Both the position numbers and the translations under genes were made by a program. Positions 20,498 through 44,048 of a stretch of DNA of 64,000 nucleotides are shown here, one piece after another. The stretch comes from Serinicoccus profundi (lineage in GTDB: Bacteria > Actinomycetota > Actinomycetes > Actinomycetales > Dermatophilaceae): NCBI RefSeq assembly GCF_008001015.1, contig NZ_CP042862.1, positions 1,860,001 to 1,924,000 on the forward strand, given 5' to 3'. Position 1 is the stretch's first letter; every line of letters starts with the position of its first letter. The notes beneath the pieces were generated by a model. The model was not told the origin of the DNA. It did not search any database and saw only the letters and a program-made list of their open reading frames with translations.

Positions 20498-22054
20498 ATG
20501 ACACCGGGAGGGGGTGCCAGCATGGCGGGGGAACGGGAACCTGCGAGCGTGAGCCAGGTCACGTCGTTGACCGCCCGCCTGGCGCTCCCCCGCCCTGATG
20601 CCACGGACCCGGAGCGGCTGGAACTGATCCGCGCCCTCGAGGATCTGAACCGCGCCAGTGCCGCAGCCCAGGCCGTGCTGTCAGAGGAGTTCGAGCGCTC
20701 CCAACGGGCACAGCAGGAGGCCGAAGGGGTGCCCGCGGAGCGGGTGGGCACCGGAGTCGCGGACGACCTCGCCCTCGCGGGCAAGCTCTCCCCCGCCCGC
20801 TCCTCCAACCGCCTCGCCTGCTCCCGGGCGCTCGCCCGGGAGATGCCGCAGACGTTGGACGCCCTGGCCTCCGGCGTCATCGACCTCGCCCAGGCCGAGA
20901 TCATCACCCGAGCCACTGCGTGTCTCTCGGTCGAGGATCGGGCGACCGTCGACGGGGAGCTGTCGGGCCGGCTGACCGGTCTGTCGACCAAGCAGATCCG
21001 GGACACCGTGAACGCGCTCGTCTACGAGCTGGATCCGCAGGTGATCGTGCGCCGGGCCCGGAGAGCCGCCGAGGACGCCTACGTCTCGATGCGACCAGCG
21101 CCGGACGTCATGTGCGTGATCTCGGCCATGCTGCCAGCGGCCCAAGGTGTCGCCGTGTATGCCGCGCTCAAGCGCCACGCCGAGGGTCTGCGGGCCTCAG
21201 GTGACCCCCGCAACCACGGCAAGATCATGGCCGACACGCTCTACGCCACCCTCACCGGGCTCGACCCCGTGACCCTGCCGGACATCGAGCTCCACCTCGT
21301 GATGACCGATGCGACGCTCATGTCCGGTGACACGGTGGCGGCCTTCCTCGACGGCTACGGGCCCGTGCCTGCCCAGAATGCTCGCGACCTGCTCATCCCC
21401 CCGGCGGCCTCCGAAGGTCCGATGGGTGAGCTCGGCCCGGATGCTGAGCCGGGCCTCGAGCGAGAACTCTGCCCGGAGGGGTCGCAGTGCGCCGACTCGT
21501 CCTGCTCCCGAGTCCACGGGACGGTGGACCACACGGCACAGCCCCAGGCCGAGGGTGAGCCGGCCGAGGACAAGGATGGTCACGAGCCGCCGACCCACGC
21601 GGCGCCCGCGAGCGAAGGGCCAGTCGACGAGGAATCCGTCGACCAGGGATCTGTCGACGAGGAATCAGTCGAGGAGGCCAAGCGGGCGTCGGCGCGGGTC
21701 TTCGTCCGGCGTCTGTATGCCGACTCCCTGACCGGGGAGGTCTTCGCCCGCGACAGCCGGCGTCGGTTCTTCCCGGCCGCGGACCGGGCCCTCATCGTCA
21801 GCCGGGACCGCTACTGCCGGAGTCCCTGGTGCGGCGCCCCGATCAGGCATATCGACCACCGCATCCGACACCGCGACGGGGGCGGCACCTCGACACACAA
21901 CGGGCAGGGTCTGTGTGAGCGCTGCAACCAGGGGCGGGAGCGACCTCGTCAGACCGCGGTCCCACCGACGCTCTACCTCAGAGCCAGCTCGGTGCTCCCG
22001 CGGCTGAGGAGTGCACACCCGCCGGACCACGCCGCGCGGGAAAGGGCGGGCTGA
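20498..22054 (+). CDS. DUF222 / HNH endonuclease signature protein (13E12 repeat family)
   Basis: 518 aa. N-terminal DUF222 (about residues 40-290), a low-complexity acidic linker with repeats of SVDEESVDQGSVDEESVEEA (about 375-394) and a C-terminal HNH motif: CRSPWCGAPIRHIDHRIRHR followed by NGQGLCERCN. In Mycobacterium many 13E12-family genes are LexA-controlled; here too an SOS box sits in the promoter. The biological role of the family is not established. Start 20498 follows GGGGAGAGGG; a second ATG at 20522 with GGGAGGGGG is equally good and fits the predicted transcript start better. Followed by a strong hairpin. Confidence 0.88.
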   Translation: MTPGGGASMAGEREPASVSQVTSLTARLALPRPDATDPERLELIRALEDLNRASAAAQAVLSEEFERSQRAQQEAEGVPAERVGTGVADDLALAGKLSPARSSNRLACSRALAREMPQTLDALASGVIDLAQAEIITRATACLSVEDRATVDGELSGRLTGLSTKQIRDTVNALVYELDPQVIVRRARRAAEDAYVSMRPAPDVMCVISAMLPAAQGVAVYAALKRHAEGLRASGDPRNHGKIMADTLYATLTGLDPVTLPDIELHLVMTDATLMSGDTVAAFLDGYGPVPAQNARDLLIPPAASEGPMGELGPDAEPGLERELCPEGSQCADSSCSRVHGTVDHTAQPQAEGEPAEDKDGHEPPTHAAPASEGPVDEESVDQGSVDEESVEEAKRASARVFVRRLYADSLTGEVFARDSRRRFFPAADRALIVSRDRYCRSPWCGAPIRHIDHRIRHRDGGGTSTHNGQGLCERCNQGRERPRQTAVPPTLYLRASSVLPRLRSAHPPDHAARERAG

Positions 22055-22325: not shown

Positions 22326-24155
22326 TCAGCCCTGCGCGGGGCCCGCGCCGTCCGCCGTCTCCTTTTCCGCCTCGGGCTCGGGCTCGGGCTCGGCGTCCAC
22401 GCCGGCCTCCTTGCGCTGCTCCGGCGTGATCGGGGCCGGAGCCGCGGTCAGCGGGTCGAAGCCGCCACCGGACTTCGGGAACGCGATGACGTCGCGGATC
22501 GAGTCGGTGCCGGCGAGCAGCGCGACGATCCGGTCCCAGCCGAAGGCGATCCCGCCGTGCGGGGGCGCACCGAACTTGAACGCCTCGAGCAGGAAGCCGA
22601 ACTTCTCCTGCGCCTGCTCCGGGGAGAGCCCCATGATGGCGAAGACCCGCTCCTGGACGTCGCGGCGGTGGATACGGATCGATCCGCCACCGATCTCGTT
22701 GCCGTTGCACACGAGGTCGTAGGCGTAGGCCAGCGCCGCCCCCGGGTCCTGCTCGAGGGTGTCGAGGAACTCTTCCTTCGGCGAGGTGAAGGCGTGGTGC
22801 ACCGCCGTCCAGGCCCCGGCGCCGACCGCGACGTCACCCGCCGCGACCGCGTCACCGGCCGGCTCGAAGAGCGGCGCGTCGATGACCCACAGGAAGCTCC
22901 AGGCGCTCTCGTCGACGAGCCCGACGCGCTCGGCGATCTCCTGCCGGGCCGCCCCGAGCAGGGCCCGGGACGGCTTGGTGGCGCCGGCGGCGAAGAAGAC
23001 GCAGTCGCCCGGCGCGGCACCGACGTGCGCCGCCAGACCCTCCCGCTCGGCGTCGGAGAGGTTCTTGGCGACCGGTCCACCGAGCGTCCCGTCCTCGCCC
23101 ACGGTGACGTAGGCCAGACCCTTGGCCCCGCGCTGCTTGGCCCACTCCTGCCAGGCGTCGAACTGCCGACGCGGCTGGCTGCCGCCACCGGGCATGACGA
23201 CAGCACCGACATACTCCGCCTGGAAGACGCGGAAGGAGGTGTCGGCGAAGTAGTCGGTGCACTCCACGAGCTCCACCTCGAAGCGCAGGTCCGGCTTGTC
23301 CGAGCCGTAGCGCCGCATCGCCTCGGCATACGTCATCCGGGGGAAGGGCGTCGTGAGCTCGACCCCGATGGTGCGCCACACCGCCGTCGCGATGGTCTCG
23401 CCCAGCGCGATGACGTCGTCCTGCTCGACGAAGCTCATCTCGATGTCGAGCTGGGTGAACTCCGGCTGCCGGTCGGCCCGGAAGTCCTCGTCGCGGTAGC
23501 AGCGGGCGATCTGGTAATAGCGCTCCATCCCGGCCACCATGAGCAGCTGCTTGAACAGCTGCGGGCTCTGCGGAAGGGCGTACCAGCTGCCCGGCTGCAG
23601 GCGGGCCGGCACGAGGAAGTCGCGCGCGCCCTCGGGGGTCGACCGGGTCAGGGTCGGGGTCTCGACCTCGACGAAGTCACGCTCGGCGAGGACGGTGCGG
23701 GCGGCCGCGTTGACCTTGGAGCGCAGCCGGAGGTTCTGCCCGGCGGACCCGGCACCGGGCCGGCGCAGGTCGAGGTAGCGGTGGCGCAGTCGCGCCTCCT
23801 CCCCCACGGTGACCCGCTCGTCGATCTGGAAGGGCAGCGGTGCGGCGGCGCTGAGCACCTCGATCTGCGTCGCGACGACGTCGATGCCGCCGGTCGGGAG
23901 CTCGGGGTTGACGTCCTTGTCGGCGCGCGCGGTGACCTCGCCGACGACCTTGACGCAGTACTCGCTGCGCAGGTCGTGGGCGGTGCCGGTCAGGACCTCG
24001 TCCCGGGCGACGACCTGGACGACACCGCTGGCGTCGCGCAGGTCGATGAAGGCGACTCCGCCGTGGTCACGGCGTCGGGCCACCCAGCCGGTGAGGGTGA
24101 CGGTCTGCCCGACGTGCGCGGGTCGCAAGGTGCCCGACTCGTGGGTGCGTAGCAT
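22326..24155 (-). CDS. aspS: Aspartate-tRNA ligase
   Basis: 609 aa bacterial-type AspRS with an N-terminal OB fold ([20 protein letters not shown]), class II motif 2 ([20 protein letters not shown]), a GAD insertion domain ([20 protein letters not shown]) and motif 3 ([16 protein letters not shown]). The ATG at 24155 follows GAGGAGAGATC. An acidic tail of Glu-Pro repeats ends the protein. Whether it also charges tRNA-Asn cannot be told. Transcribed from its own promoter through a T-box leader (separate entry). Confidence 0.97.
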
Positions 24156-24387
24156 GATCTCTCCTCTCGGTGCGGAGCGCCGGGGTCGATCGATGCGACG
24201 GCCCGGGCCCGCCATGGCAGCCCGGGAGGTGTGGGCGGGGGCCAGGTCGCGGTGCCACCACACCTTTGTCGAGGGGACCTCGACCTCTCGTCGGTCTCGC
24301 CGGACGCGCGGCCCCGGGTGGTGCGTCCGGAGGTCGGGGTATGCCGCCTCCGTCCGCCCCGGCGGGTCGTCAGGCCGCCCCGGGAAC
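24156..24387 (-). promoter_or_regulatory. T-box riboswitch leader of aspS
   Basis: About 230 nt from a -10 TAGGAT (24399-24394) to the aspS start. The T-box core GGTGGCACCGCG is at 24259-24248 and matches the GGUGGNACCGCG consensus exactly; the wider AGGGUGGNACCGCG matches 12 of 14. The bulge reads UGGC, which would pair with a tRNA ending GCCA; tRNA-Asp has discriminator G73. An upstream hairpin (24379-24361) shows TGACGAC in its loop, a possible GAC (Asp) specifier in a very short Stem I. A CCCGGGC/GCCCGGG hairpin follows the core. Uncharged tRNA-Asp should raise aspS expression. Confidence 0.8.
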
Positions 24388-24444
24388 GCCCCCATCCTAC
24401 GGCGACCAGGCAGTGGACCACGCACACGTGATCCCGACGTCAGG

Positions 24445-38668: not shown

Positions 38669-38678
38669 TAAGGGTGGT

Positions 38679-38795
38679 CCGGCGGTGTCCTACTCTCCCA
38701 CACCGTTCCCAGTGCAGTACCATCGGCGCTGTCAGGCTTAGCTTCCGGGTTCGGAATGTGACCGGGCGTTTCCCTGACGCTATGACCGCCGTAAC
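38679..38795 (-). rRNA. rrf: 5S ribosomal RNA
   Basis: About 117 nt. Read on the minus strand it starts GTTACGGCGGTCATAGCG and ends GGACACCGCCGGAC; the two ends pair (CGGCGGT with ACCGCCG). The conserved loop CCCGGAAGCTAAGCC is present. Last gene of the 16S-23S-5S operon. Confidence 0.95.
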
Positions 38796-38850
38796 ATGTT
38801 CGACCTTGTCCAACCGTTGTTGCTGGGTTGGTTGTGGGTCGGGAACCGTG

Positions 38851-38866
38851 CAGTGGACGCGAGCAT
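38851..38866 (-). other. 23S processing stem, 3' arm
   Basis: In the RNA this arm reads ATGCTCGCGTCCACTG and is the exact complement of CAGTGGACGCGAGCAT at 42060-42075 in the 16S-23S spacer. The 16-bp pairing closes the 23S precursor and should be an RNase III target. The remaining spacer bases 38796-38902 show no gene. Confidence 0.8.
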
Positions 38867-38902
38867 GATGTCTGTAAGAGCTTTGAGACTTTGTTGGTTT
38901 TG

Positions 38903-44048
<5,146 letters not shown>

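Follow-up and report, generated by a model that had tools for sequence, protein, structure and literature searches.

The leader of aspS

To begin with, the window (the whole stretch of 64,000 nt of Serinicoccus profundi DNA that was analysed) carries aspS on its minus strand, preceded by a leader of about 230 nt (Table 1). Tail to tail with aspS lies a plus-strand open reading frame of 518 aa (window 20498-22054), the C-terminal stretch of which we take to be HNH-like. Three rRNA genes (5S, 23S and 16S; minus strand, window 38677-44048) were the only matches of Rfam models at gathering thresholds in the 64-kb window. An earlier note on this DNA had proposed a T-box in front of aspS, pointing to the sequence GGTGGCACCGCG at 24259-24248 of the minus strand and to a short hairpin at 24379-24361 whose loop contains TGACGAC, and both are present there.

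The putative transcription start was placed near 24387 from the position of the -10-like TAGGAT, and 43 of the 44 aspS leaders compared below have a TANNNT string no more than 20 nt ahead of the element. Stem I, the hairpin whose loop carries TGACGAC, is 19 nt long and lies at or close to the inferred 5′ end of the RNA. It is enclosed by a helix here termed P0, the strands of which pair in the window in a register that is shifted or bulged relative to the one most common among relatives. Further downstream, the helices A1 (AGGUGUGG/CCACACCU) and A2 (GCG/CGC) have the bulge UGGCACC between them, which is the layout of a T-box antiterminator.

Table 1. Features of the aspS locus in window coordinates.
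Feature	Position	Strand	Evidence
aspS (AspRS, 609 aa, bacterial type)	22326..24155	-	NF001750, 838.8 bits (cut-off 443)
-10-like box TAGGAT	24394..24399	-	sequence
P0 helix, 5′ strand GUUCCCGG	24380..24387	-	double changes at 8/8 pairs, 92.3% of cells paired, n=44 leaders
Ultrashort Stem I hairpin GGCGG-CCUGACGAC-CCGCC	24361..24379	-	98.2% of cells paired, one double-change pair
Specifier GAC (Asp), then G	24369..24371	-	GAC in 44/44 aspS leaders
Variable junction arm	24319..24360	-	4 to 67 nt among relatives
P0 helix, 3′ strand	24311..24318	-	alignment of leaders
IIA hairpin (CGC..GCG) and likely IIB pseudoknot CGUC/GACG	24289..24310	-	nearly invariant
Stem III	24268..24284	-	double changes in 5/7 pairs, 97.7% of cells paired
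Antisequestrator A1, bulge, A2	24227..24265	-	A1 and A2 100% paired in 44 leaders
7-nt bulge UGGCACC	24251..24257	-	kept in 44/44 aspS leaders
GC-rich stretch from A1 to Shine-Dalgarno, containing a hairpin	24172..24226	-	hairpin covaries across 44 leaders
Shine-Dalgarno GAGAGGAG	24161..24168	-	sequence

Conservation, covariation and match to tRNA-Asp

The contigs of 84,980 species were scanned, and the best 80 aspS loci were taken. Among these, GTGGCACCGCG appeared about 100 nt before aspS in the six closest (L001-L006, Serinicoccus/Ornithinimicrobium) and was absent from the other 74, a few of which have less than 400 nt of upstream DNA. The 12-mer alone was uninformative, as 146 of the 149 family genomes contain it and this genome has it four times, against six copies of the backwards pattern. 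Seven leaders were aligned, and RNAalifold recovered P0, Stem I, Stem III and A1 from them unprompted; the named structure was paired in 97.7% of their cells, versus 36.7-48.2% when slid.

The structural model built from these seven leaders (R1) had matches in 74 of the 186 family genomes, which spread over 27 of its 53 genera and include 26 of the 31 genomes of the genus, the remaining five having no match. A total of 76 matches were obtained, of which 44 lay before aspS, 26 before AspS2 and six before neither; the latter (L182-L187) were weak (23.5-25.7 bits) and were set aside. The 44 aspS leaders scored 86-153 bits, with full-length matches down to 3.3e-29 per genome, and the proteins that follow them were 78-100% identical to the AspRS of the window, 100% being this genome itself; one of the 44 (L130) was counted from 18 residues at a contig end.

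In the alignment of the 44 aspS leaders fitted to R1, 97.5% of 1,495 cells were paired, versus 38.5-48.1% when slid, and double changes occurred at 15 pairs and in 90 cells, versus 7.9 and 29.3 in shuffles, values that none of 500 shuffles reached. Covariation was found in all pairs of P0 and in most pairs of Stem III (Table 1). Moreover, the two strands of P0 matched better within than between genomes (317 versus 286 for the best of 5,000 permutations, totals that include some misparsed rows, such as L112, L122 and L134). A1, A2 and IIA/B yielded little covariation evidence, as they are too conserved: double changes in A1 amounted to two pairs across 84 sequences, the A1 and A2 pairs otherwise hardly varied, and IIA was 100% paired, with its IIB partner conserved and hardly varying, so that covariation support for the nearly invariant IIA/B was little or none. 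Taken singly, the leader of the window folded no better than its shuffles (z -1.04; 32 of 200 equally stable), and its minimum free energy structure differed from that of the model.

The proposal of a T-box in front of aspS was confirmed by comparison of sequences, GAC and the UGGCACC bulge being kept in all 44 aspS leaders, and so was the expectation that relatives would conserve the core. A chance motif in GC-rich DNA, which the commonness of the 12-mer in genomes might suggest, is refuted by the full-length model matches, 44 of them before aspS, and by the covariation, leaving this explanation a negligible probability.

Regarding the amino acid, the GAC specifier that had been suspected in the ultrashort Stem I was followed by G in 42 of the 44 aspS leaders and by A in two. 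The loop in the window holds two GAC triplets. Since UGAC is invariant in the 44 leaders while the second triplet varies (GACGCC, GACAAA, GACACC), the first GAC (24371-24369) is, on this comparison, the specifier, and the second was rejected. The one tRNA-Asp matched by the search pattern in this genome has the anticodon GUC and G73; the C of the UGGC bulge is complementary to this discriminator and would be expected to face it, as the earlier note had predicted from the bulge. A tRNA-Ile reading fails on both the specifier (GAC) and the bulge base (C). Comparison at the sequence level shows the RNA, its helices, the specifier, the bulge, G73 and the linked gene.

The Rfam T-box model, proposed earlier as a check, did not find the element. 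RF00230 gave no match in the window at the gathering threshold, and none at the relaxed limits of E≤5 (801 nt around the aspS leader) and E≤10 (whole genome), which, taken literally, is one of the outcomes that the earlier note had named as a refutation. We read this silence as insensitivity of the model, because it was equally silent at E≤1 on the seven short-form loci scanned, while three relatives with a long Stem I scored 50.8 (L229), 54.2 (L230) and 56 bits (L188), with a cut-off of 93; two of these three were read as preceding AspS2. The sole Rfam match in the 801 nt was RF03169 (c-di-GMP-II-GAG, 18.1 bits), which would make the leader a c-di-GMP-II-like riboswitch; at E 1.3 and far below the gathering score of 40 bits, and overlapping IIA/B and Stem III, which the T-box accounts for, this reading was rejected as extremely improbable.

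Sister T-boxes and the output step

The 26 R1 matches before AspS2 precede a protein about 32% identical to the AspRS of the window, and the four of these proteins that were typed pass NF003483 (aspartate--tRNA(Asn) ligase, AspS2). In a search covering 184 of the 186 family genomes, AspS2 was found in 26, which are exactly the genomes whose R1 match lies before AspS2; the 44 genomes with an aspS T-box are not among them. A total of 24 of the 26 AspS2 genomes also have AspS1 over the cut-off, one being cut by a contig end, and the AspS1 leaders of seven two-gene genomes showed no T-box (best match 9.3 bits, partial). Given this distribution and the T-box-free AspS1 leaders, the T-box sits on AspS2 where both genes are present and may sit on aspS where AspS2 is absent.

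The AspS2 T-boxes of the family share the GAC specifier (26/26, within the strings UGAC in 21 and AAGAC in five) and the discriminator core with the aspS element. They differ in the gene downstream, in a clear Shine-Dalgarno sequestrator and in architecture: 20 of the 26 have a Stem I of 31 nt and a linker of 10-12 nt to Stem III, with P0 and IIA not read in them, while five carry markers of a long Stem I and L165 fits neither expression. In L158-L178 and L180, with the 31-nt Stem I, 10-12 nt to Stem III and neither Stem II nor IIA read, we perhaps have the smallest T-boxes of this analysis. Furthermore, the bulge ends as UGGCACA, rather than with the usual ACC, in 21 of the 26 (within L160 and L162-L181).

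Beyond the family, R1 matched 24 of 347 genomes of the order, eight of which belong to the family itself. Of the others, 13 genomes held 14 T-boxes, each in front of an AspS2 gene (61.6-68% to the AspS2 of L158), and three had weak matches only, in which the T-box core was absent; the matches L215, L216, L217 and L219 of this search were set aside for lacking that core. By eye, P0, the GAC hairpin and IIA/B could be read in L200-L205, from other families of the order, as in the aspS element; these differ from it in preceding AspS2 and in a short sequestrator adjoining A1. A second model (R2), comprising the discriminator region and Stem III and trained on short forms, matched 25 of 394 genomes of the class: three before aspS of the own family, 21 before AspS2 and one before serS. 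A T-box before a bacterial-type aspS was not seen outside the family in these order and class samples. The matches of R2 include L229 and L230, class members with a long Stem I that RF00230 scores as well, providing a bridge of homology between the short and long forms; L188 (Amycolatopsis rubida) likewise has a long Stem I, and its gene was judged AspS2-like from its translation. Two side observations come from these searches. The serS locus (L234, genome G720; TIGR00414 362.2 bits) has a long-Stem-I T-box with the specifier loop GAAUCCAC (UCC, Ser), which may be an actinomycete T-box for Ser, and the AspS2 T-box L242 has the bulge UGGU in place of UGGC.

A different explanation for structural conservation ahead of a tRNA synthetase gene would be that the leader binds AspRS or another protein for autoregulation and only resembles a T-box, tRNA binding by the latter being itself a prediction. 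Against it, the specifier codon, the purine that follows and the discriminator base all fit tRNA-Asp, the same core stands before AspS2 and, with a UCC-like specifier, before serS in L234, and the long-form kin match RF00230, which makes this explanation very unlikely.

Our main reading, to which we assign a probability of roughly 85%, is that the aspS mRNA leader is a tRNA-Asp T-box, in which charged tRNA would lower AspRS translation through pairing of the Shine-Dalgarno. The GAC of the Stem I loop would pair with the GUC anticodon of tRNA-Asp, and when this tRNA is uncharged, its G73-CCA end would pair with UGGC in the antisequestrator bulge, stabilizing A1/A2. Charged tRNA-Asp would be excluded from the bulge, A1 would open, and its freed 3′ strand (ACCU...GGG) could pair toward the Shine-Dalgarno (CC..AGG), so that less AspRS would be translated. 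From the known behaviour of such cores and from the relatives we infer tRNA binding, a response to charging and an output in translation rather than in transcription.

The evidence on this output differs between the two groups. For the AspS2 relatives translational control is well supported by computed pairing, as in 26/26 of them the region of the A1 3′ strand can pair with the Shine-Dalgarno (-15.9 to -21.6 kcal/mol), which would make a direct switch. For the aspS of the window, translational control is favoured by analogy, owing to its kinship with the AspS2 T-boxes. The aspS leaders allow the same pairing, with ACCU-N1-4-GGG in 44/44 and a CCGARAGG-like stretch in 39/44. Nevertheless, covariation between the A1 3′ extension and the Shine-Dalgarno was not detected in the aspS group (permuted partners were equal or better in 499 of 500), alifold found no long conserved helix in the stretch from A1 to the Shine-Dalgarno, and the computed openness of the Shine-Dalgarno changed little (0.32 without and 0.24 with the A1 3′ strand). 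The hairpin that lies downstream of A1 and ahead of the start codon, on the other hand, covaries strongly across the 44 leaders (own arms -958.1 versus a permuted mean of -650.3, reached by 0 of 500 permutations). These two results would suit a tRNA-Asp T-box acting on transcription, through termination or Rho access, instead of ribosome binding; no U-run follows this hairpin in the aspS leaders inspected, a Shine-Dalgarno sequestrator that overlaps A1 is clear in the AspS2 kin, and a transcriptional output is considered unlikely. The output step of aspS may differ from that of its AspS2 kin, since the Shine-Dalgarno region is paired by a hairpin situated closer to the start codon, a pairing that only 4 of 300 permutations reach.

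Comparison with known T-box architectures

That the T-boxes described from Actinobacteria belong mainly to ileS, as the earlier note remarked, agrees with the portion of PMC1262725 consulted, and his-gene T-boxes have been reported in Actinobacteria as well, according to the portion seen of PMC9413887. Among titles and abstract openings, no report of an actinobacterial aspS T-box was found, a scope that leaves out Sherwood 2015, Vitreschak 2008, Gutierrez-Preciado 2009 and TBDB. Beyond what the earlier note had seen, the present analysis brought out the sister T-boxes of AspS2, the enclosing P0 helix and the lack of a recognizable S-turn Stem II.

T-box tRNA binding is augmented by an IDTM, by an S-turn Stem II or by both, as outlined in the available part of PMC10482949, and the layout of the aspS element matches none of the four classes given there. 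The long Stem I with IDTM of Classes I and II is lacking from it. Strings typical of the S-turn (TAGA[AC]C, GAAGAAC) were found in 0 of 44 aspS aptamers versus 8 of 8 ileS leaders, a comparison by sequence only, and the longer junction arms could hold an S-turn of other sequence. The loci L189-L196 presumably precede ileS, as assigned from a motif in their translations. The spacing between Stem I and P0 is down to 4 nt in L148 and 5 nt in L152, which leaves no room for a Stem II, and P0, as the 5′-end helix, surrounds the specifier hairpin and lies directly next to the IIA/B element.

The novelty of the element is in its architecture, that is, in P0 and in the lack of any sign of an IDTM or S-turn. 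We consider it moderately probable that this represents a fifth T-box architecture, with neither IDTM nor S-turn Stem II, in which a 5′-end P0 closes the junction around the specifier hairpin, stacks on IIA/B and replaces Stem II geometrically, and which arose first with AspS2 and was then handed to the aspS of family members without AspS2. An element seemingly devoid of both augmenting modules would offer a test of the minimal requirements of T-boxes. Moreover, it adds control by tRNA-Asp to Actinobacteria beyond ileS, in a form missed by the standard Rfam model, and its relatives provide a natural series for the same amino acid within one bacterial class, comprising forms with a long Stem I, with a K-turn-like short Stem I and with P0.

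Regarding known systems, the closest likeness is to the Class III translational ileS T-boxes of Nocardia farcinica/Mycobacterium, which, in the parts of their description available, also have a short Stem I that presents the specifier in its apical loop, followed by an IIA/B-like element, an ACGAGAGG-like sequence, Stem III, a UGGN bulge and A1/A2. In contrast to these, the aspS element has GAC rather than AUC as specifier, C rather than U as the last base of UGGN, a specifier loop of 9 nt rather than 5-6 and a Stem I placed inside P0. The Class II glyQS T-box resembles it in working without Stem II, but relies on a long Stem I with IDTM, as far as the accessible part of PMC10482949 states, whereas the aspS element has a Stem I of 19 nt and keeps the likely IIA/B.
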